Below, in pieces: positions 43-39,635 of a stretch of 39,758 nucleotides of DNA. The notes beneath the pieces were generated by a model. That model ran no database searches. It was not told where the DNA came from and saw only the letters and a program-made list of their open reading frames with translations. Numbering within the stretch: the stretch's first letter is position 1; the number at the start of each line of letters is the position of its first letter. The translations under genes and the position numbers were made by a program. Source of the stretch: a virus; the IMG/VR virus record IMGVR_UViG_3300037480_000137, positions 1 through 39,758 of that record; one strand, 5' to 3'.

Positions 43-654
43 TCAACGAGCGAACCTAAGAGCAGTGGTCAATCTTTTATCAAAATTTCTAGAGAAATGT
101 TTTTGTACAGAGGCATTGACAATTAAATTAAAAGGAAATCTCTTTTTATATTGAACTTCTTTTTTAAACGAGGCCAACAATACAATTGTCTGACTACCAC
201 GTCGGCCTTTACGTTCCCATATACCAGACACCCCATTAATAGTAGCAACAAAGCGATTCGCTTTCCCCTTTACTATACCGCCTTTTCTTCCGGGAATATT
301 ACCATACTTGTTCAAACGAATATTAACCGGCACCGCGATATGACGGGCTCCTCCAGACGGACGTATAACACCCCCCTTTATTTGGGGTGTTAAATACTTG
401 GCTTGTATAGCGGCGATATATACAGCAGCAACCAACTCCCGCTTATTAGACTTTCTGAATTTAAAACCACGTAATGTAAAGGGGGTAGGATTATTGAGTG
501 TCCCTGGGGCCTTCTCTTTTAGATCCCGAGTAGCCATAAAAGCAGTATCATTGAGGCCTTGGGATGTGGCGAATGGAATCTGCTTTCTTTCAATTTTCGA
601 AAGCTTCCGGGTAAGGTCCTTCAAATCATCTTTTATGCTAATTTCAAACGCCAT
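43..654 (-). CDS. Minor tail / head-tail protein, GpZ-like (putative)
   Basis: A basic protein of about 203 aa. The ATG at 654 is chosen over an in-frame TTG at 678 because an AGGAG lies upstream on the minus strand and the sequence then begins MAFEIS. The layout resembles lambda minor tail protein Z: a helical N-terminus followed by a mention of a small-gene-like 'FATSQGLNDTA' segment, a Gly/Lys/Arg-rich middle with 'WERKGRRG', and a C-terminal 'ASFKKEVQYKKRFPF' block before a helical end. It would act in tail completion or head-tail joining. It is separated from the primase gene by the repeat array and is followed after 21 bases by the next start. Family membership is from memory of motifs only. 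Confidence 0.45.
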   Translation of the reverse strand: MAFEISIKDDLKDLTRKLSKIERKQIPFATSQGLNDTAFMATRDLKEKAPGTLNNPTPFTLRGFKFRKSNKRELVAAVYIAAIQAKYLTPQIKGGVIRPSGGARHIAVPVNIRLNKYGNIPGRKGGIVKGKANRFVATINGVSGIWERKGRRGSQTIVLLASFKKEVQYKKRFPFNLIVNASVQKHFSRNFDKRLTTALRFAR

Positions 655-691: not shown

Positions 692-988
692 AGGTTACCC
701 CCAGTTACCCCGGTTACCCCCTTACTTGCTCAAAGGGGTAACCGTCGGAAAGCGAGGCGCGGCAACACTTTTGAAAATTAGTTACCCCGGTTACCCCTTT
801 AAATATATATATTTATATATAAGTAAAAATAAAAGGGTATATATAGCTCTGAGCTTCTCTAGGGAAAAGGGAAAAAGGGGGTAACTGGGTAACTGGGGGT
901 AACTGGGTGTTTTTCTTTAATGAAATCAATTGGTTATTGGAGTTACCCCTTTTCGCTAAGGGGGGTAACTTTGCCCAAGGGGGTAACC
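692..988. repeat. GTTACCCC / GGGGTAAC repeat array with AT-rich core; candidate replication origin
   Basis: This gene-free stretch (655-990) holds about twelve copies of an 8-base core, GTTACCCC or its complement GGGGTAAC, usually preceded or followed by G or A/T. Copies lie near 694, 704, 713, 735, 781, 790, 878, 887 (GGGTAAC, one base short), 896, 942, 962 and 980. The left clusters are mostly in the GTTACCCC orientation and the cluster at 877-904 is inverted, so they flank an AT-rich segment at 798-845 made of TA-alternating sequence. Iterons bordering an AT-rich unwinding element next to a primase-helicase gene are typical of replication origins. The function is inferred. The array could instead serve as a regulator site or late promoter region. 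Confidence 0.55.
862..907 (+). other. Six-tract G-quadruplex-forming sequence
   Basis: Six runs of three to five G follow one another with loops of four or five bases: GGG at 862, GGG at 869, GGGGG at 877, GGG at 887, GGGGG at 895 and GGG at 905. The last three loops are all TAACT. Four such tracts with loops under eight bases satisfy the usual G-quadruplex rule, so several alternative folds are possible on the plus strand. It lies at the edge of the repeat array, beside the AT-rich core. Confidence 0.6.
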
Positions 989-990
989 GA

Positions 991-3147
991 TTACATCTGA
1001 TTCTTGTATAAATTCACAAGATCGGTTGGAGAAATCTCGTGCATGGTCTTATATTTTTCGATATTTCTTATTGCCCAAATGTACAATTTTTTTGTTTTTT
1101 TATCCTCTTTATATGAGCATTCGAATTTTTCAGCCCCATATTTTTTCAGCAAGACCCCGGCTCGAGCTGGATTCTTGATACCTCTTTCGGCGAATTTTTC
1201 GATAATCTCAGCAACAGTAACAAGGTCATTATCAAAGGGCTCTATATGCGCCGCTATCGCTTCATGAATAGCAACCTCCATACCGGAAAGGCTCATAGCA
1301 CCAATTTCCCTTCTGTACTCCGTCTCTGGGGCTCCTCCACCGTGCCTGAATGAAGTTACGTCTCGTCGAAGTAGCCAGCCGGCCACAGCCTCGTTTCCTC
1401 CTTCATATAACCACTTCCAAAAATCAATATAATATTGCTCATCCTTCCTAGCCATTCCACACCACAAGCAAAAGTATCGCGTGTCGCCTTTCGTCCTAAT
1501 AGAAATAGCATCAGGCTCATTACTAAAGAATACGATTGAAACGACGTTGTGAATTTCATATTGGCGCATTCCTTTAGGATTTATATGAAGGAATTTTGGT
1601 GGCGCTGCACAAAGGGGTTTTAATTGATTTTCATAAGTGCGTTTTTCATAGTTCATTATCTCCTCGACCATTATGAGCTTTTTGCCGTTGAGAAATTCAT
1701 TATGAGCATTGTGCATTTGTTCGGCTTGGGGGTGGGAGACGTTTTGCGATCCAAAATATTCAACAATAGGGCAAAAGGCAGTATCTTTACCAATTCGAGG
1801 AGTCCCAGCCATTAGGATTTGATGATTAATTTTAATCCCTGGACGTTGCATGGTAAAAGCCATCCAATTCAATAAATGTTCCCGTTGCTCCTCGTCAGGG
1901 ATTAAATATGCCATATGCAACAACCATGGCGTAACGTCTCCTTCAGTCGTTTCCATAGTAGGCTCAACATACAAATTTAGTTTATTGGTATTACCTTCCT
2001 TAAGGAGACGGCCAGCACCAGGTAACCAAGTCACAGTGTCCACGATTATTGCTGTTTCCTCGAGTAAGAAAGATTCATGAGCCTTTGGGCCATTCTTTCC
2101 TCCGGGGAATTGCTTTAAATGAATATTATTAAAAACGGTTGGGGTCATAAATATTCCACTAAGCCCATCAAAATATCGGTCTTGATCTTTCACATAGGCA
2201 TATTGCTTAGTTAAAAAATCAGCTCCTCTTATATTGAACAACAATGGTTGCTTAACATTCGTATCACGCCACATTTTCCGAAAATATTTTTCAGGGAAAC
2301 GTTGTTCATTTATCTTACCATGCTCAAACAGGTATAGAGCGCCCAACGTTTCTTCTTCACTCAGCCCACGACCTTTCAGCATCGCCAATAATGTCATGTC
2401 ATATCCGGACCGGCTTGTGTCTGCTTGATTCTCTGTTGGCGTACCTTCCCAAAGCGCCGCGACACGTCCATCATTGTCCAATAGCAATTGGAGTTTTTCG
2501 TTGTCCTTACTAATCGCTGTTTTGGCTTCTTCCTTTATCCCTCCTACCCATTTTATGAGTTGGTTTGGTTTATAGCGCACCCCATTAGCAAGAACAGTGC
2601 TACTTTGCGATTGTTCGTAGCCCGCGCGGATTTTTTGCGGTGTTGGATAATTAATCATATCAGGATAGCGCATAACGCGATCTACATTATGGCAATTATC
2701 TCCGCCGAGCTTTTTTTGAAGTGCTATGTTTATTTGTTCAGCCAATTCAATATTCCCAGCATCAGCATCAAGCGGTTTTTCATAATACCAATAAACAGCA
2801 TAACCATTTCCACTATCAATAATCGCGCTGGGCTTTAAATCCAAATCATCAATCAGCGCTTTTATACGCGTTCTTTCTTTTTCGCGGTTTTTATTTTTAT
2901 CAGGGTCAATATCTACCCATGCTGCAAGAATTTCTTTGATATCATTTTTGGTGGCTTTCTTCTTGATTGGTTTGGGATTGTTGACGGTGAAATAAATATT
3001 GAATCCTTTGCTGTTTAAATCCTGGGCCCATTTCTTGGCTTTTTTCTTTTCATCAAAGGGCTCCGCCTTTATTGTTTCTTGCCCCATTGGGTCGATTGCG
3101 ACTAGGTGTATGATTTTGTTTTTGTAGAAGGTATTTATGAAGTTCAT
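991..3147 (-). CDS. Primase-helicase: AEP-type primase domain fused to SF3-like/DUF5906 NTPase
   Basis: A 718-aa replication protein. The N-terminal part has archaeo-eukaryotic-primase-like motifs: WVDIDPD at residues 77-83 (metal-binding acidic pair), SGNGY at 112-116, and DRVMRYPDMINYP near 156-168. The C-terminal part is a P-loop NTPase of the phage/virus D5 or DUF5906 kind: Walker A GTPRIGKDT at 448-456, Walker B LIMVEEI at 491-497, a sensor-like FSNEP at 541-545 and an arginine near 557. Such proteins unwind DNA and lay primers at phage or plasmid origins. Its ATG overlaps the stop of the VRR-NUC gene by four bases (ATGA), so the two are probably translationally coupled. Its 3' end abuts the GTTACCCC array, supporting an origin there. 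Confidence 0.88.
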   Translation of the reverse strand: MNFINTFYKNKIIHLVAIDPMGQETIKAEPFDEKKKAKKWAQDLNSKGFNIYFTVNNPKPIKKKATKNDIKEILAAWVDIDPDKNKNREKERTRIKALIDDLDLKPSAIIDSGNGYAVYWYYEKPLDADAGNIELAEQINIALQKKLGGDNCHNVDRVMRYPDMINYPTPQKIRAGYEQSQSSTVLANGVRYKPNQLIKWVGGIKEEAKTAISKDNEKLQLLLDNDGRVAALWEGTPTENQADTSRSGYDMTLLAMLKGRGLSEEETLGALYLFEHGKINEQRFPEKYFRKMWRDTNVKQPLLFNIRGADFLTKQYAYVKDQDRYFDGLSGIFMTPTVFNNIHLKQFPGGKNGPKAHESFLLEETAIIVDTVTWLPGAGRLLKEGNTNKLNLYVEPTMETTEGDVTPWLLHMAYLIPDEEQREHLLNWMAFTMQRPGIKINHQILMAGTPRIGKDTAFCPIVEYFGSQNVSHPQAEQMHNAHNEFLNGKKLIMVEEIMNYEKRTYENQLKPLCAAPPKFLHINPKGMRQYEIHNVVSIVFFSNEPDAISIRTKGDTRYFCLWCGMARKDEQYYIDFWKWLYEGGNEAVAGWLLRRDVTSFRHGGGAPETEYRREIGAMSLSGMEVAIHEAIAAHIEPFDNDLVTVAEIIEKFAERGIKNPARAGVLLKKYGAEKFECSYKEDKKTKKLYIWAIRNIEKYKTMHEISPTDLVNLYKNQM

Positions 3148-7046: not shown

Positions 7047-7191
7047 TTACCAAGCCTTTCGGTGGCTCTTGAGATTTGACTCGGAAGCTAAGTTGTTTTG
7101 GTTATGGGCTTTTTTGTTACAAGCAAATCTATCCGAGTGCGTGGGTGATAACCTCTACCCATATGCGCGAGGGGCTCAAGCTATACTTTGA
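7021..7191 (+). CDS. Possible small ORF, 56 aa
   Basis: An ATG at 7021 follows a strong GGAGGAGG about ten bases upstream and opens a 56-codon frame that begins MLRYTAMSNYQ and contains a Trp-rich hydrophobic stretch 'KLFWLWAFLLQ'. It overlaps the previous gene by 26 bases and the next by 29. It may be a real membrane-associated micro-protein or a leader that delivers ribosomes to the gene at 7163, which lacks its own good ribosome binding site. Confidence 0.35.
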   Translation: MLRYTAMSNYQAFRWLLRFDSEAKLFWLWAFLLQANLSECVGDNLYPYARGAQAIL

Positions 7192-7986: not shown

Positions 7987-9428
7987 TGTATAAAACGAAA
8001 CCATACAAGCATCAACGCAAAGCGGTTAATCGCCTTATAAAGGAGGATAACTTTGCGTTGTTTATGGAGATGGGTACAGGGAAGACTAAAATTATTATTG
8101 ATGATGCCTCCTACCGCTACGAGCGCGGATTGATTGACACGCTTATTATTGTTTGTCCTAATGGACTTCAATTAAATTGGATGAATCGTGAATTGCCTGT
8201 ACACATGGCTGCTGAATATAAAGTAGCTGTCTGGGGCACCACGACTAAGGAGAAGCGAGCCTGGTATGCATTATATGACGAACGAGAAAAGCTCCGCGTT
8301 TTTATTATCAACATTGATCAGCTTTCTCGAGGGGAAGGGGAAAGGATATTGTCGAAAGTGCTTCGCTCTGCGATAGGAGCGATATTGGCGGTGGATGAAT
8401 CGCAGCGAATAAAAAACCATAAAGCGAATTGCACAAAAGCATTATTACGACTGGGTCCAGAAGCAACATACAAAAGGATTCTCAGCGGAACGCCAGTGAC
8501 CCAGGGGCCATTGGACTTGTGGAGTCAAATGCGTTTCCTAAACCCCAAGATCCTTCCCTTTAAAACATACACAGCATTTAAGCACAATTACGCAATTATC
8601 ACTATTGTAAAGGTCGATACCAACCGGCTGGGATTCTTTGAGAAGATTACCGGGTACAAAAACCTCGACCAATTACGAAAATACATAGCACCTTATTCCT
8701 TTATCGTTAAAAAGAAGGATTGTTTGGACTTACCTAAGAAGCTGTTTGAAAACATCTATGTCCCGTTGACAGCTCAACAAAAGCGAATCTATAAGGAGAT
8801 GGTGAGAGAGGCTGTGGCTGTAATTAAAAACCCTCCTTCTCATATGACTCCTGAAGAAATGATTTTATGGGCGATGGATAGTAAAGGGCGCATCACTGCG
8901 GCGAATGGCCTGGTAAAATTATTGCGTTGTCAGCAAGTCCTAGGCGGTTTCGTAAAGTCAGAAGACGGAACTGTTGAGCGTCTCGACAATAATCGCTTAA
9001 CGATTTTATTGGAACAATTGGGCTTATTGGCGGATGATGCTAAAGTTATTATTTGGGCTCGATTCGTCGAGGAAATAAAAGCATTGAAGGAATTGCTTGG
9101 TGATGAAGCGGTTACCTATTACGGAGCAGTTAACACGAAAGACAGGGACACTGCTGTAACCGCTTTTCAGGAAAATCCTGACATACGTTATTTCATAGCC
9201 CAACCCGCCAGCGGCGGAGTTGGCTTAACGCTTACCGCAGCGAGTTATGTTGTTTGGTATAGCATGGACTATTCCTTGGAACATTATCTCCAAGCGAATG
9301 ATAGAGCGCATCGAATAGGTCAAACGAAAAATGTTACATACCTACATTTGGTGAGTCCTAAGACGCTGGACGAAAGGATACTGACAGCATTAACTACTAA
9401 GAAACGGATTGCGGAGGAACTAATATGA
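7986..9428 (+). CDS. SNF2-type superfamily 2 DNA helicase/translocase
   Basis: A 480-aa DEAD-like/SNF2 ATPase. Motif I MGTGKT is at residues 29-34, motif II DESQ at 137-140, motif III SGTP at 167-170, and motif VI NDRAHRIGQ at 438-446. The D-E-S-Q box in place of DEAH and the R-A-H-R-I-G-Q ending are typical of the single-chain phage SNF2-like helicases. It would translocate on or remodel duplex DNA during replication or recombination. It is read in a TAATG junction with the gene before it and overlaps the following gene by four bases. Confidence 0.9.
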   Translation: MYKTKPYKHQRKAVNRLIKEDNFALFMEMGTGKTKIIIDDASYRYERGLIDTLIIVCPNGLQLNWMNRELPVHMAAEYKVAVWGTTTKEKRAWYALYDEREKLRVFIINIDQLSRGEGERILSKVLRSAIGAILAVDESQRIKNHKANCTKALLRLGPEATYKRILSGTPVTQGPLDLWSQMRFLNPKILPFKTYTAFKHNYAIITIVKVDTNRLGFFEKITGYKNLDQLRKYIAPYSFIVKKKDCLDLPKKLFENIYVPLTAQQKRIYKEMVREAVAVIKNPPSHMTPEEMILWAMDSKGRITAANGLVKLLRCQQVLGGFVKSEDGTVERLDNNRLTILLEQLGLLADDAKVIIWARFVEEIKALKELLGDEAVTYYGAVNTKDRDTAVTAFQENPDIRYFIAQPASGGVGLTLTAASYVVWYSMDYSLEHYLQANDRAHRIGQTKNVTYLHLVSPKTLDERILTALTTKKRIAEELI

Positions 9429-9967
9429 CAGCATCATTTATCCAACCTGAATCCCCACCAACGCTCTCGACCGAGCAGCTGGGCCGTCTTGGGGAATTGG
9501 CCAACAAGCAAGTCGATCTTGAACAAGCGGTAGTGACTGCTGAAGAGCATGTCAAAAAAATCAAGAAAGATTTGGCGGTGGTGGCGGAGCGAGATATACC
9601 AGAGCTCATGACGGAAATCGGCCTTCAAAGTGTCAAGACAGAAGATGGTCACGAAATCTCTATCAAAGATATTATGAACGCCAGCATCAGCAAAGACCGA
9701 AAGCCAAAAGTCATTAAATGGTTAATGGCCAATGACCTCGAGTCTTTAATCAGTGTGGATGTCATTGCGAGTTTTAGCAAGGGCGATACAACAGAGGCCA
9801 ATGATCTTTTATCAATGCTTGTTGATGAAGGATATCAGGCCAACTCTGATGAAAAAATTAACACATCCAGCGTCAAGGCTGCTGTTAAGGAACTCATCGA
9901 ACAGGGCGCTGAAATTCCGTTCGCGTTACTCGGAATAAACATCGTCAAAAAATCAATAGTCAAATGA
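9425..9967 (+). CDS. Conserved phage protein with N-terminal coiled coil, unknown function
   Basis: A 180-aa protein starting in an ATGA overlap with the helicase stop. After a Pro-rich leader it has a long helix ('LANKQVDLEQAVVTAEEHVKKI') of coiled-coil type, a short beta segment 'GLQSVKTEDGHEISI', and a helical C-terminal half. Proteins of this kind occur just before SSB-like genes in several phage replication modules. A DNA-replication accessory role is plausible but not shown. Confidence 0.65.
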   Translation: MTASFIQPESPPTLSTEQLGRLGELANKQVDLEQAVVTAEEHVKKIKKDLAVVAERDIPELMTEIGLQSVKTEDGHEISIKDIMNASISKDRKPKVIKWLMANDLESLISVDVIASFSKGDTTEANDLLSMLVDEGYQANSDEKINTSSVKAAVKELIEQGAEIPFALLGINIVKKSIVK

Positions 9968-9978
9968 GGCAATAAACC

Positions 9979-10740
9979 ATGGCAGCAAAAAAGAAAGCAG
10001 TAGCAAAGAAAGATCAACTCCCGGCTAAAGTAGTCAATCTGGCGGCTGATGCTGGGATGGGTTTGGAGGGCGCTAACAAAGATAGCTTTGCCATTCCTTA
10101 TCTCGGCATCTTACAGCAGCTCAGTCCGCAAGTCGATTCTGATGATGAGGCGTATGTTAAAGGCGCGAAACCCGGCAAGATGTTCAATTCTGTTTCGGGT
10201 GAGGTGTATGATGGCGTCGTTGTCCTCCCAGTCGCGTACAAGATGGAGATTCTTGAATGGATACCTCGTTCTGAAGGAGGTGGCCTGGTCGGTCGATACG
10301 AGGTGGGTGATGAGCCAGCATACAAGATTGTTGATGGTCGCTGGAAGACGGAAGACGGTCACGACCTCAGCGACACGCGTATGCATTACGTGCTTATTTT
10401 GAAGAAGGATGGCTCATTTGAACCGGCTGTTATTAGTATGGCCAGCAGCCAAATCAAAAAGTCCAAGCGCTGGATGACAATGATGCAGAATTTCAAAGTC
10501 ACCCAAGCAGGCCAAACATTTACTCCGCCGACGTTCGTTGTTAAATACGAAATGGGCTCTATAAAGGAGGAGAATGATAAGGGCAAATGGCATGGCTGGA
10601 CAATTAAAAATCTCGGAGTACTTACGGAAGATGAGATGAATCTTTATGCAGCCAGTAAAGAATTCCACAGCGCAATTATTGGCGGTAGAGTAACCACTGC
10701 CGATCCTGCGCCTGAAGCTGAAGCTGACGATAACTTTTAA
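9979..10740 (+). CDS. Putative single-stranded DNA-binding protein
   Basis: A 253-aa protein with a Lys/Ala-rich N-terminus (MAAKKKAVAKK), a beta-rich core ('GVVVLPVAYKMEILEWIP', 'HYVLILKKDG', 'FVVKYEMGS') and an acidic tail ending in E-A-E-A-D-D-N-F. An acidic tail capped by an aromatic residue is the hallmark of phage and bacterial SSBs, including T7 gp2.5, and recruits partner proteins. Position between the SNF2 helicase and nucleotide genes fits. The core has no recognisable OB-fold sequence motif, so the call rests on tail, length and context. Confidence 0.5.
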   Translation: MAAKKKAVAKKDQLPAKVVNLAADAGMGLEGANKDSFAIPYLGILQQLSPQVDSDDEAYVKGAKPGKMFNSVSGEVYDGVVVLPVAYKMEILEWIPRSEGGGLVGRYEVGDEPAYKIVDGRWKTEDGHDLSDTRMHYVLILKKDGSFEPAVISMASSQIKKSKRWMTMMQNFKVTQAGQTFTPPTFVVKYEMGSIKEENDKGKWHGWTIKNLGVLTEDEMNLYAASKEFHSAIIGGRVTTADPAPEAEADDNF

Positions 10741-15783: not shown

Positions 15784-16028
15784 TAGAGGCAATTCTCATT
15801 TTGCTGGTGTTGGTACTTATTGTTCTGATAACTCCTATGCTTAGGATGTTAATTGTCCATCGAAATTATATGCGGGCAATGAATCTTTCTGACCGACTTG
15901 GGCCGCCATTCAATACAATTTGGCATTCTGAAAATGACCCTGTACAAGTATATGACAGGCTTTATAAAGATATGACCAAATGGACATTCAACCAAATGTT
16001 CCCGGAATTTAAAAATGATAAGCATTAA
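15780..16028 (+). CDS. Small membrane-anchored hypothetical protein
   Basis: An 82-aa protein with a single strongly hydrophobic N-terminal segment (about residues 3-25, 'ILILLVLVLIVLITPMLRML') and a soluble polar C-terminal part. Either an N-in membrane anchor or an uncleaved signal. It is read in an ATGA junction with mazG and overlaps the polymerase start by 14 bases. No family recognised. Confidence 0.6.
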   Translation: MIEAILILLVLVLIVLITPMLRMLIVHRNYMRAMNLSDRLGPPFNTIWHSENDPVQVYDRLYKDMTKWTFNQMFPEFKNDKH

Positions 16029-18783
16029 AACAGAATACAGCTTCCGAAAAGTATTTGGCCATATTGATAAAGTGGCGGAGCGTTGCGCAGCCGTCGGATT
16101 AAAAGCTGCGGCGATTGCTGACTATGATAATACCTTTGGGCATGTACAATGGCGCAAGTCTTGCGAGAAGCATGGCATCCACGCTTGCTATGGCGTTACG
16201 CTCCGTGTTTATGTCGGAAAACTCGAGAACGAACGCAAAGCGGATTTTATATGGACAACATTCATTGCTCAAAACAATAAAGGGCTAAGGCAAATCAATG
16301 AGCTGGTTTCCGAGGCATATGCAAATTTCTATTATGTCCCAAGGTTAAGCTCGCATCGTCTTTTCGAAATGTTGCCAACTTTAAAAGATAACATGGTAAT
16401 GTTTAGTCTTAAAAATACTTTGGCGCCTGATACTCAATTTATCCCGAGGCATGACGACAGGCCATTTCATGTATGGGCTGGTTTTGATAATTACTATCCA
16501 GAGATTAAAGATCGGATTGTGTATGAACTTAGTGCGGAGCGTTTCGAAACCAAAACAACGCCGCAACATATATTAACTAAAGAGGAATGGCTTGAGATAT
16601 TCCCTCACCGTGATTCTGTTTGGGATGATACTCAGGACTTGTTGTTATCCTTTGATGCTCAATTAACTAAAGCGCCTTTGCTACGGTTTCCGGATAAATT
16701 CGATATCAGGAAGCAATGCAAGATTGGTGCAAAATTGAGAAACATAGATTTGACCGACCCAGTATACAAAGCGCGTATGAATCGCGAATTGTTATTGATT
16801 AAGAAAAAAGATTACATTGATTATTTTGCGGTCGTTGCGGACCTTATCAACTACGCGAAGGAACATATGCTGGTCGGCCCTAGTCGCGGAAGCAGCGCGG
16901 GCTCCTTGGTTTGTTACTTGTTGGGCATTACTGAAATTGATCCTATCCCTTACGGATTAATATTTGAACGCTTTATTGACGTAACTCGTTTGGACTTGCC
17001 TGATATTGATATTGACTTCCCGGACGATAAGCGTTGGATGGTAATTGAATATTTGGAAAATAAATATGGGAAAGCCAACATTGCTCATATCTGTAACATC
17101 AGCCGGCTGAAGCCTAAATCAGCCATTGGGGAATTTGCGAAAGCGCTACAAATCCCCACGTATGAAACGCAGCCTGTGAAGGATGCGATTATTGAACGGA
17201 GCGGAGGAGATGCGCGCGTTGCTATGTGCATAAAAGATACGCTCGAATCGACCGACGCAGGAAAAGAATTTATTAAAAAATATCCGCCCATGGCATTAGT
17301 GGAACATATTGAAGCCCATGCGCGTCATAGCGGAGTTCACGCAGCGGGGATTATTGTTTGTAACGACCCGATTACTAAATATGTCGGCTTCAATAGTCGC
17401 GACAATGTTGCGATGGTTGATAAGAAAGATGCGGAAGAACTGAACCTATTGAAAATTGATATTTTGGGATTGCGCACGCTTACAATATTGGAACAAACCC
17501 TAGAGCAAATTGATAAAGGATTTAATTGGCTATACAATTTGCCTTTAGATGATGCTGATACCTTTACAGTATTTAATAACATGCGCCTCGCAGGAGTATT
17601 TCAATTTGAAGGATACGCGCTACAATCGCTAACACGCCAAATGGAGATAACAGAATTCAATGACATCGTAGCAATAACATCATTAGCGCGTCCCGGTCCG
17701 TTACATTGTGGTGGTGCAACCGACTTCATTGAACGTCGAACGGGACGCAAGCCGATTAAATATTTGCATGATTCAATCATTCCTTATACTGAGGAGACGT
17801 TTGGTACAATCGTATACCAAGAACAAGTCCTGCAAATAAGTCGCGAAGTTGGAAAGTTGAGTTGGGAAGATACAAACCAATTACGTCGAGCGCTGAGCAA
17901 AAGTCTTGGTGATGAATTCTTTAATAAGTACAAAGTCAAATTCCTAAAAGGAGCTAAGGAAAATGGCATGGAGGAATCGGAAGGTATTAAGATATGGGAG
18001 AACATGTGTACATTTGGCTCTTGGGCATTTAATAAATCGCACGCGGTTAGCTATGGGCTTATCAGTTATTGGACAGCATATTTAAAAGCGCATTACCCGT
18101 TGGAGTTTGCTGTTGCGATGCTCAACAATGTTCGCGATGACTCCCAGGGAGTGAAACTGTTAAGGGATATGGTTGAGAATGAGGGGTTGAAGTATAAGCC
18201 TGTTGATGCTGAATATTCTATGGGGACCTGGTCTGTTAATGACGGGCTCTTGATCGGAGGGCTTGTCAATTTAAAAGGAATTGGCGCGAAGAAAGCTCAA
18301 CAAATAATCGACCGGAGGAAAAAAGGATTAAAATTAACACCAGCAATCCAAAAGATAATCGACAAAGCGGAAACGCCATACAATGACATCTTCCCGGTCC
18401 GGAGCCGGTTTGCTGATTATTACAAAAACCCGAGCGCATATAATATAAACAGCACCGGCCTATCGTATCTAAAAGACGTTCAAGAGGATGGCTCATACAT
18501 TTTTATCGGATTACTCGTTGACCGAAACTTGCGGGACCTTAATGAGTATGGGAGCGTTGTTAAGCGCGGTGGAAAAATAATCAAGAAAAATAATCTGTTC
18601 CTGAACTTTACGGTCGAAGATGATACAGACAGCATCATCTGTACTATCGACCGATACAAATATCAGGCGATGGGAAAGACGATAGCAGAGACCGGGAAAA
18701 TTGGCGAGGACTTCTATTTGATAAAGGGAAAAATCAGTGGGGATTGGCGGAAAATCTACGTGGAGAAGGTGAGAAAATTATGA
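16015..18783 (+). CDS. dnaE: DNA polymerase III alpha-subunit-like (family C) replicative polymerase
   Basis: A 922-aa family C polymerase, shorter than E. coli DnaE (about 1160 aa). The palm is intact: 'GPSRGSSAGSLVCY' near residue 285, P-D-I-D-I-D-F at 329-335 with two catalytic Asp, and a third Asp in 'LLKIDILGLRTL' at 482. 'HAAGIIV' and the fingers blocks follow. The N-terminal PHP-like region keeps its outline (I-K-T-E-Y-S, A-D-Y-D-N) but lacks the metal-binding His, so it is probably inactive; a separate DnaQ gene supplies proofreading. The C-terminus has an OB-like end and appears to lack the tau-binding tail. It overlaps the gene before and the regulator after it. Confidence 0.9.
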   Translation: MISIKTEYSFRKVFGHIDKVAERCAAVGLKAAAIADYDNTFGHVQWRKSCEKHGIHACYGVTLRVYVGKLENERKADFIWTTFIAQNNKGLRQINELVSEAYANFYYVPRLSSHRLFEMLPTLKDNMVMFSLKNTLAPDTQFIPRHDDRPFHVWAGFDNYYPEIKDRIVYELSAERFETKTTPQHILTKEEWLEIFPHRDSVWDDTQDLLLSFDAQLTKAPLLRFPDKFDIRKQCKIGAKLRNIDLTDPVYKARMNRELLLIKKKDYIDYFAVVADLINYAKEHMLVGPSRGSSAGSLVCYLLGITEIDPIPYGLIFERFIDVTRLDLPDIDIDFPDDKRWMVIEYLENKYGKANIAHICNISRLKPKSAIGEFAKALQIPTYETQPVKDAIIERSGGDARVAMCIKDTLESTDAGKEFIKKYPPMALVEHIEAHARHSGVHAAGIIVCNDPITKYVGFNSRDNVAMVDKKDAEELNLLKIDILGLRTLTILEQTLEQIDKGFNWLYNLPLDDADTFTVFNNMRLAGVFQFEGYALQSLTRQMEITEFNDIVAITSLARPGPLHCGGATDFIERRTGRKPIKYLHDSIIPYTEETFGTIVYQEQVLQISREVGKLSWEDTNQLRRALSKSLGDEFFNKYKVKFLKGAKENGMEESEGIKIWENMCTFGSWAFNKSHAVSYGLISYWTAYLKAHYPLEFAVAMLNNVRDDSQGVKLLRDMVENEGLKYKPVDAEYSMGTWSVNDGLLIGGLVNLKGIGAKKAQQIIDRRKKGLKLTPAIQKIIDKAETPYNDIFPVRSRFADYYKNPSAYNINSTGLSYLKDVQEDGSYIFIGLLVDRNLRDLNEYGSVVKRGGKIIKKNNLFLNFTVEDDTDSIICTIDRYKYQAMGKTIAETGKIGEDFYLIKGKISGDWRKIYVEKVRKL

Positions 18784-37601: not shown

Positions 37602-39635
37602 CTATTTAAGTCCAATCCACGTATTAAGTGTTAAGTAATTATCTAAAAAAGTCAAAACCCCTTGAGCTATTCCGACAACCGATCCAAGAATATCATACTC
37701 CAAAATTAAATGTTTGCCATTTGGTATATTAGTAATTGCTGTAATATCCAAAGTCTCATAATATTGCCCATCACCAAGATCGTTAAGAGCCAAAGATTTT
37801 TGAACCCATCCCGAAGTTTTAAAAGTATCGTCATCAAAATCCAAATATGAATTTGTTGTAAGATTATCGCGTACCTTTACAGAAACCGTTAATCCAGTTA
37901 CTCCTCCTGAATTATTTACTGATAATGAAATTGGAGCCGCAGTTTCAAATCTCGTTATAGAAATTTGACCACCTGTATCTATACTAGCAGCCGCTACAAC
38001 AGCACCAGCAACCGTAACCGAACCAACAGCACTCGTCGCTTCGACGCCAGTGAGCGCTACAGTTCCAGATTTAGTAAAACCTAAAGAGCCAACAGCACTC
38101 GTTCCTTCGACGCCTGTTATTCCAATTTCTACATCTGCGCCCGTCGATACAGAACCGACAGCGCTCGTTCCCTCGACACCCGTTATAGCAACACTCGTCC
38201 CAAGGCTTACACTTCCAACAGCACTCGTTCCTTCGATGCCTGTTATAGAAACACTCCCTGATTTAGTAAGTCCAACTGAACCGACAGCGCTCGTTCCTTC
38301 TACTCCTGTTATTGGAATAATTACATCACCGCCAGCAGCAACACTTCCGACAGCGCTCGTTCCTTCTACTCCTATTAATGCGACTGAATGAACAGAACCA
38401 ACAGAGCCAACAGCACTTGTTCCTTCGACGCCTGTTATAGAAACACTCGTTCCAGGGCTTACACTTCCAACAGCACTCGTTCCCTCGACGCCTGTTATTG
38501 GAATAGTTACATCACCACTAACAATAACATTCCCAGCAACACTCGTCCCCTCAACACCCGTTAATGCGACTGAATGAACAGAGCCAACAGAGCCAACAGC
38601 ACTCGTTCCTTCTACTCCTATTATTCCAGCGCTGCCTCCTTTAGTAAATCCGACTGAACCAACAGCACTCGTTCCTTCTACTCCTGTTAATGCTACTGTT
38701 CCTGATTTGGTAAAACCTAAAGAACCAACTGCGCTCGTTCCTTCAACCCCCGTGAGCGCTACACTTCCCGATTTAGTAAAGCCTAAAGAGCCAACTGCTG
38801 ATGTTCCTTCAACTCCCGTTATAGGAACAGTTACGGATATTGACGCGGTAACACTACCAACAGCACTCGTTCCTTCTACTCCAATAATTGCTTTCGAAAT
38901 TTCTGGAGATACAGATCCAACAGCACTCGTTCCTTCTACTCCAGTGAGCGTTGCCCCAGCACCAGCGGCTGCAACTATTTCTATATAATGGCCAGCATTT
39001 TCATCAACTGCATTCCAGTCAACAGTTACCGCAGATGGTGCACCGTCTAATAAATCAATAACGTAATAGGCTTGGTCTGATGTTCCTGATATACCTGTGG
39101 CACCATTAAATATATCATTGAAAGTAGCTGAACCAAGTCTATTAGAAGCCGGGTCCCCATCACCCCCTTTAAAGGTACATGCAGCATATAAAGCATTTCC
39201 AGCTGATCCTGCGGCTGGAGTGAACACGGTTCCTGCCGCTGTTGAATTATTAACCTTCTCCTGAAGAAAGTTAGTGGCATCAGCCACGCTTGTCGCGACA
39301 GTTCCAAGATAATTAACAGCAGTAGACCAAACGGTATCAGTAGTCGAAATAACAATATCAACCGTACCAGAGCCAGCCGTTGGGTTAATAAGTCCATATG
39401 TGTATACGCGCACATCGCCGTTACTACCGCTTGCTGTAGTAGCATGAACAAGTGTGAGTGGTTCACCACCACCAAGACTCCATTCCGGAGTTCCAACTAC
39501 ATTCTCACCAGCCTCAAGACCAAAAGATACCAGAGTTAGCGTTGTTCCAACATCAACTGTGTGAGTAATATCAGCAGTCGTGCCATTACTACTTGCGGTG
39601 AAAATGCTAGTTGTTACGCCACGTGTGACAGCCAT
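37602..39635 (-). CDS. Repeat-rich virion protein (15 copies of GVEGTSAVGSV)
   Basis: A 677-aa protein. Residues 1-230 form a Thr/Ser/Gly-rich beta domain ('SFGLEAGENVVGTPEWSLG', 'YVIDLLDGAP'). Residues 231-about 555 are 15 tandem repeats of roughly 22 aa, each starting T-G-V-E-G-T-S-A-V-G-S-V with variable 9-12 residue spacers. The last 120 residues are another beta-rich domain. It is encoded straight before the protease/capsid gene, so it is probably a capsid-, neck- or fibre-attached protein. Comparable repeats occur in environmental phage proteins of unknown role. Its stop lies ten bases before the capsid ATG, so the two are co-translated. Confidence 0.68.
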   Translation of the reverse strand: MAVTRGVTTSIFTASSNGTTADITHTVDVGTTLTLVSFGLEAGENVVGTPEWSLGGGEPLTLVHATTASGSNGDVRVYTYGLINPTAGSGTVDIVISTTDTVWSTAVNYLGTVATSVADATNFLQEKVNNSTAAGTVFTPAAGSAGNALYAACTFKGGDGDPASNRLGSATFNDIFNGATGISGTSDQAYYVIDLLDGAPSAVTVDWNAVDENAGHYIEIVAAAGAGATLTGVEGTSAVGSVSPEISKAIIGVEGTSAVGSVTASISVTVPITGVEGTSAVGSLGFTKSGSVALTGVEGTSAVGSLGFTKSGTVALTGVEGTSAVGSVGFTKGGSAGIIGVEGTSAVGSVGSVHSVALTGVEGTSVAGNVIVSGDVTIPITGVEGTSAVGSVSPGTSVSITGVEGTSAVGSVGSVHSVALIGVEGTSAVGSVAAGGDVIIPITGVEGTSAVGSVGLTKSGSVSITGIEGTSAVGSVSLGTSVAITGVEGTSAVGSVSTGADVEIGITGVEGTSAVGSLGFTKSGTVALTGVEATSAVGSVTVAGAVVAAASIDTGGQISITRFETAAPISLSVNNSGGVTGLTVSVKVRDNLTTNSYLDFDDDTFKTSGWVQKSLALNDLGDGQYYETLDITAITNIPNGKHLILEYDILGSVVGIAQGVLTFLDNYLTLNTWIGLK
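38000..38947 (-). repeat. Tandem repeat region, about 15 copies, within virion protein
   Basis: On the plus strand the core appears as CCAACAGCACTCGTTCCTTC with small changes, repeated at intervals of 60-72 bases. Repeat units differ in their spacers but the core is strongly kept; one copy reads VAGN and another EATS. The DNA-level near-identity gives recombination potential. Confidence 0.85.

Follow-up and report, generated by a model that had tools for sequence, protein, structure and literature searches.

The question raised by this locus is whether a short gene-free gap, filled with copies of one word and lying between a primase-helicase gene and a tail gene, serves as the replication origin of a phage, and which protein would read it. 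To our knowledge, the replication origins of most phages are unknown. The window, by which we mean the whole stretch of DNA analysed, is the IMG/VR virus record IMGVR_UViG_3300037480_000137, with a length of 39,758 bases. A first-pass annotation had proposed a phage origin in this gap.

Exact copies of GTTACCCC number 11 in the window (6 on the plus strand, 5 on the minus strand), every one of them within 694–987, and a twelfth, variant iteron, GTTACCCA, lies at 886–893 on the minus strand, in agreement with the first-pass count of about twelve copies of an 8-base core in both orientations. Whole-window dinucleotide shuffles give an expectation of 0.53 copies, and 11 copies were reached in 0 of 100 shuffles; the word GTTACCC occurs 12 times in the whole 39,758 bases, all 12 inside the array. 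The top 8-mer of the gap has 11 copies, whereas no 8-mer exceeded 4 copies when the gap alone was shuffled 2000 times. Spacing within the tandem groups is mostly 8–10 bases, about one helical turn. The TA-rich stretch that the copies were said to flank corresponds to the AT-richest 40-mers of the entire window (36 of 40 positions A or T), found at 796–845 inside the array, between the iterons at 781/790 (plus strand) and 878/886/896 (minus strand). The gap measures 336 bases, as claimed, when ATG 654, a codon preceded by GGAGTAG, is taken as the start of the tail gene; the list of open reading frames also holds an alternative start at TTG 678. The claim that the array adjoins the primase-helicase stop is likewise correct, since the last iteron ends at 987, just short of the stop codon at 991–993. 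The features are as follows.

43–654, minus strand: minor tail/tail completion gene (phrog_1924), outside the origin module
655–990: gene-free gap with the putative origin, from the 3' end of the primase-helicase gene to the 5' end of the minor tail gene
694–720, plus strand: three tandem iterons GTTACCCC (694, 704, 713; spacing 10 and 9)
735–742, minus strand: lone iteron
781–797, plus strand: inner left iteron pair (781, 790; spacing 9)
796–845: AT-rich core, candidate unwinding element
878–903, minus strand: inner right triplet (878, 886 variant GTTACCCA, 896), inverted relative to the left pair
942–949, plus strand: lone iteron
962–987, minus strand: outer right iterons (962, 980)
991–3147, minus strand: 718-aa protein, the proposed initiator, with a primase N-terminal part, an SF3-type AAA+ helicase domain (DUF5906, NrS-1-like) and a predicted C-terminal winged helix
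1066–1224, minus strand: predicted winged helix, residues about 642–694 (helices 645–655 and 660–669, strands 673–681 and 684–692), the proposed iteron reader

No DnaA boxes TTATNCACA are present in the gap, and an Rfam search gave no match. The GC skew, which had been suggested as a check, does not indicate the site: its minimum, near 3.6 kb, falls where the genes of the window change strand, and the skew is therefore uninformative about the position of an origin. The strongest GC skew of the window (−0.32) is at 38000–38950, where the words CCAACAG, GGAACGA and ACGAGTG are repeated inside a 677-aa open reading frame (37602–39635, minus strand) for which no PHROG match was found.

The N-terminal part of the 718-aa protein matches phage primases (phrog_10514), including those of Pam3 and YuA-like phages, and its helicase part matches DUF5906. 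Its closest solved relative is the helicase region of the NrS-1 primase-polymerase (E 2e-4; with the A5 profile E 1e-22; PDB 6k9c). Compared directly by sequence, the protein is no more than marginally similar to SaPI PriRep (E 0.18), and profile comparison of the window helicase family with VapE gives E 3.6e-6 over 252 columns. Because the first structure model, of the full 718 aa, had low confidence (pLDDT 55), the C-terminal half was predicted again, and the model of residues 360–718 reached pLDDT 78, with about 70–88 in the winged-helix part. This second model aligns with NrS-1 (Z 22.5), with the SaPI5 primase-helicase (Z 17.0) and with PriRep1 bound to dsDNA (Z 12.9, model residues 10–342, that is, window residues 369–701), and the helicase has a fold match to 7om0, 7ola and 7pds. 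The modelled C-terminal end consists of helices and two strands in a winged-helix-like arrangement. By these models, the 718-aa protein is an AAA+ helicase related to Rep/PriRep with a predicted C-terminal DNA-binding domain, as is characteristic of the SaPI type. Among the other genes of the window are those for a DNA polymerase III alpha homologue (16015–18783) and an SNF2-type helicase; beside the latter, at 9425–10740, lie relatives of the Pam3 proteins gp33 and gp34.

In SaPIbov1 the iterons form two groups around an AT-rich centre. The window has the same layout, with iteron groups on either side of an AT-rich stretch, and its several short iterons lie between genes, immediately 3' of the helicase gene. 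SaPI Rep recognises, by means of its C-terminal domain, iterons that lie just behind its own gene, and the C-terminal domain of Cch2 alone binds the repeats downstream of the cch2 gene (PMC7581432, in which the origin downstream of the Rep gene is attributed to Ubeda 2007). The SaPI Rep/PriRep systems (7ola, 7om0, 7pds) thus resemble the window in having an initiator helicase of related AAA+ fold with multiple short iterons directly downstream, and the counterpart of their C-terminal DNA-binding domain would be the predicted winged helix. The window differs from SaPIs in that its contig is that of a tailed phage and includes structural genes, that a single NrS-1-like protein combines primase and helicase, and that the iteron is GTTACCCC. 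The putative origin of SCCmec Cch2 also has its repeats directly 3' of the helicase gene, but these are three AAGTG repeats, the helicase has no fused primase, and the element is a cassette, not a phage (PMC7581432). The 718-aa protein is the likely binder of the array, as the first pass had suggested.

The first-pass annotation had also suggested looking for the motif beside homologous primase genes. Viral contigs were scanned for paired GTTACCCC and with further patterns, which gave several hundred loci. A VapE, DUF927, PrimPol or NrS-1-like helicase was present in the locus for 15 of 36 strong two-orientation GTTACC arrays, compared with 7 of 291 weak clusters; the 36 include the window itself, and the helicase profiles drew in part on the first loci of this kind, which biases the fraction of 15 in 36 upward, while the distances between array and helicase remain informative. 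For most of these 15 loci, the distance from helicase stop to array start is −7 to +202 bp (L008, L011, L016, L018, L048, L067, L075, L121, L388, L403, L450 and the window); in L019 the array is 3.2 kb from the helicase, and in L004 and L009 it is near the start of the helicase gene. The order of iteron orientations differs between phages, and so do the genes downstream of the array (nuclease, DEAD/SNF2 helicase, hypothetical genes), with the helicase as the constant upstream neighbour. GTTACC(C) is thus not unique to the window phage: similar arrays recur in unrelated viral contigs, and the word is one of several iterons beside VapE, DUF927 and PrimPol helicases. No second contig with exactly the iteron GTTACCCC beside an NrS-1-like helicase was found.

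The same scans returned strong GTTACC clusters in long open reading frames and coding repeats, which were judged unrelated by inspection (e.g., L022, L034, L035, L055, L068, L090, L102, L349 and L419). Copies of GTTACCCC also occur directly upstream of integrase gene starts in L072 (7726–7994), L080 (466–682), L039 (3920–4165), L096 (6865–6911), L239 (240–412) and L303 (7013–7291). Four scanned integrases (L072, L080, L039, L096) have an Arm-DNA-bind_3 domain, and those of L239 and L303 were assigned by inspection; these copies may therefore be arm-type or regulatory sites.

Because the array-based search is biased, we carried out a survey by VapE protein instead. With a VapE alignment, 80 loci were fetched, and a 7-mer occurring at least 5 times was sought in the 450 bases behind each stop. 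An iteron array by this measure follows 60 of 77 VapE genes, and among 1594 other 450-base segments of these loci 5 contain one; the remaining 17 of the 77 have no array by the 7-mer test in the 450 bp after the stop. The words vary by phage and include TGTTACC, TGTTACA, TGTTGAC, TGTAAAC, TGTCCAC, TGTAGAC, TGTATCC and TGTACCC, among others. Arrays lie in gene-free stretches of 283–341 bp behind VapE in Paenibacillus phages Pd_22F and GIW2016, Staphylococcus phage JD419 and Corynebacterium phage Dina, and no clear array was found behind VapE by the 7-mer measure in Bacteroides phage BC679P5, Lactococcus phage 1358 and the satellite Javan30. The VapE protein of L016 matches SaPI PriRep1 (7pds, E 2e-74), and the DUF927 protein of L121 matches another pathogenicity-island protein (8tch) and Cch (5dgk). 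VapE and DUF927 proteins are thus related to SaPI Rep and Cch, each of which has its origin immediately behind its gene.

When viral contigs were scanned with the window primase as the sole query protein, no relative emerged; the three-protein alignment A4 yielded 80, and the alignments A1 and A3 held no sufficiently conserved block to scan with. The nearest relative found of the window helicase, L457, has eight CAAGGGACA within 280 bp after the stop, arranged in inverted pairs, of which one stands to the left and one to the right of an AT-rich stretch, so that its array is analogous to that of the window in position and layout and differs in the iteron word. In many more distant NrS-1-like relatives the array is 1.3–4 kb downstream of the helicase gene, and in some there is no array anywhere in the locus; no array is present close to the helicase gene in L125 and L126, which are named NrS-1-like phages. 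Adjacency of array and helicase is therefore common, not universal. The downstream arrays seen in L123 (10250–10950) and in many of L457–L536 consist of words such as TGTAAACA, TGTGGACA and TGACCCA.

Evidence on which part of the helicase reads the iterons comes from a group of VapE proteins of 806 aa, in L198, L200, L201 and L204 (6000–7160), with L201 equal to L200 but for one residue. Compared with L198, they have 9–13 residue differences, and the last 25 residues hold 9 of 9 of these in L200, 9 of 10 in L201 and 10 of 13 in L204. The iterons behind the gene are TGTTACCA in L198, TGTCTACA in L200 and L201 and TGTCAACA in L204, replaced throughout the array, and much of the DNA between and beyond the iterons is conserved among L198, L200 and L204. 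The Clostridioides phage phiCDKH02 (L546), fetched afterwards, combines the L204 tail with the L204 iteron, as predicted. Together, these phages constitute a natural swap experiment for origin specificity. Proteins that are nearly identical and differ almost only in the last 25 residues, with a concerted change of the iterons, indicate that the C-terminus of the VapE helicase very probably reads the iterons.

In other close VapE pairs, equal tails go with equal words, and diverged tails often, not always, go with different words; some pairs with diverged tails keep one iteron. Over all VapE loci, the correlation between iteron similarity and C-terminal similarity is weak (rank correlation 0.26, and 0.15 without the AAA+ part), and the coupling is clearer in close pairs than in this global comparison. 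When the C-terminus of the window family was compared by hhalign with the VapE C-terminus alone, no match was found, so that the reading rule of VapE is carried over to the window protein by fold and position.

Overall, we consider it highly probable from these comparisons that 655–990 is a phage replication origin of the SaPI type and that the 718-aa primase-helicase is the initiator that would bind the iterons, melt the core and prime synthesis. The origin proposed in the first pass is thus well supported; what supports it is the comparison with other phages, and GC skew adds nothing.

The best rival to the iteron reading is an origin based on a hairpin or cruciform, in which the site is the same but the extruded structure, instead of the iteron sequence, is recognised. 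Such a mechanism has precedent in pRN1, which like the window has a primase-helicase with the origin region directly downstream of the gene, but in which a 100-nt stem-loop downstream of orf904 is essential in place of an iteron array; a stem-loop origin has also been proposed for phages with primase, SF3 helicase and winged-helix domains, including BIP-1 (PMC4234260). The array strand does fold far more strongly than its shuffles (z −6.5), with arms 683–723 and 874–914 that are 78% complementary, but any inverted iteron array folds by itself, and the order of orientations is not kept between phages. Moreover, the words of L198, L200 and L204 change with the C-terminus of the protein, which fits a reading of sequence better than a reading of shape, and we regard the hairpin as unlikely. 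That the repeats are instead single-stranded recognition sites of the primase domain is suggested by the NrS-1-like helicase part, since NrS-1 polymerase starts synthesis at an 8-nt site, TTTGGTTA (PMC8718748), which shares GGTTA with some iterons. However, TTTGGTTA has 0 copies in 679–990, and the NrS-1 genome has only two copies of its own start site (PMC7102993), with no iteron array reported beside the gene in the passages of these two papers that were consulted. The tandem pairs at about one helical turn and the coupling of VapE iteron and C-terminus point to binding of duplex DNA by the helicase C-terminus, and recognition of single-stranded DNA by the primase domain is very unlikely. 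The window has three copies of TTTGGTTA outside the array, at 7097, 19112 and 24415.

Since the array stands immediately before a structural gene on the same strand, it could also consist of operator or activator sites for the late (tail and head) genes from 654. This is disfavoured because the helicase, and not the downstream gene, is constant across phages; in addition, a terminator and promoter scan of the gap found none of either, including no sigma-70-like site, and we consider a late-gene operator quite unlikely. A role in packaging (pac/cos), in partition or as integrase arm sites is the most improbable. The last of these finds some support in other contigs, where GTTACCCC copies immediately precede genes for P4-type integrases that carry an arm-binding domain, but no integrase or terminase was found in the subset of window open reading frames that was scanned, none adjoins the array, and the central AT-rich core beside a helicase is unlike the cases upstream of integrases.

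The array and its layout, its place 3' of the helicase gene, its recurrence beside related helicases and the concerted change of VapE tail and iteron are established here. For the probable SaPI-type origin in the window, we propose that the C-terminal winged helix of the 718-aa protein would bind the GTTACCCC iterons, and that copies of the protein would assemble, face to face, as ring helicases that flank the AT-rich core. These rings would melt the core and then unwind outwards, and the N-terminal primase domain may make the first primers for the phage polymerase, possibly the DNA polymerase III alpha homologue.

This type of origin is already known from SaPIs and SCCmec. The first-pass remark that the core is not one of a described initiator agrees with the literature: text searches gave no phage origin with GTTACCCC, and a search in which subscription journals were thinly covered found no report of the iteron GTTACCCC, of an iteron array beside an NrS-1-like primase-helicase, or of a wide occurrence or a concerted change of tail and iteron in phages. 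Going beyond this locus, we think it rather probable that a private origin directly behind the helicase's own gene is a very widespread feature of phage helicases of the VapE, DUF927 and NrS-1-like kinds, and that the last 25–35 codons together with the array form an exchangeable cassette that switches specificity. If so, the specificity of the GTTACCCC module would be one of many found in nature, in a large collection of mutually orthogonal initiator–origin pairs.

A simple rule, by which one seeks, immediately 3' of an SF3-like helicase, AT-rich DNA surrounded by copies of one word in both orientations, would then locate many phage origins, and it would also identify matched initiator–origin pairs that should not cross-react, which would be useful for phage biology, satellites and vector design. 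Because nearly identical VapE proteins with different tails and iterons exist, the recognition code is directly testable with few residues.
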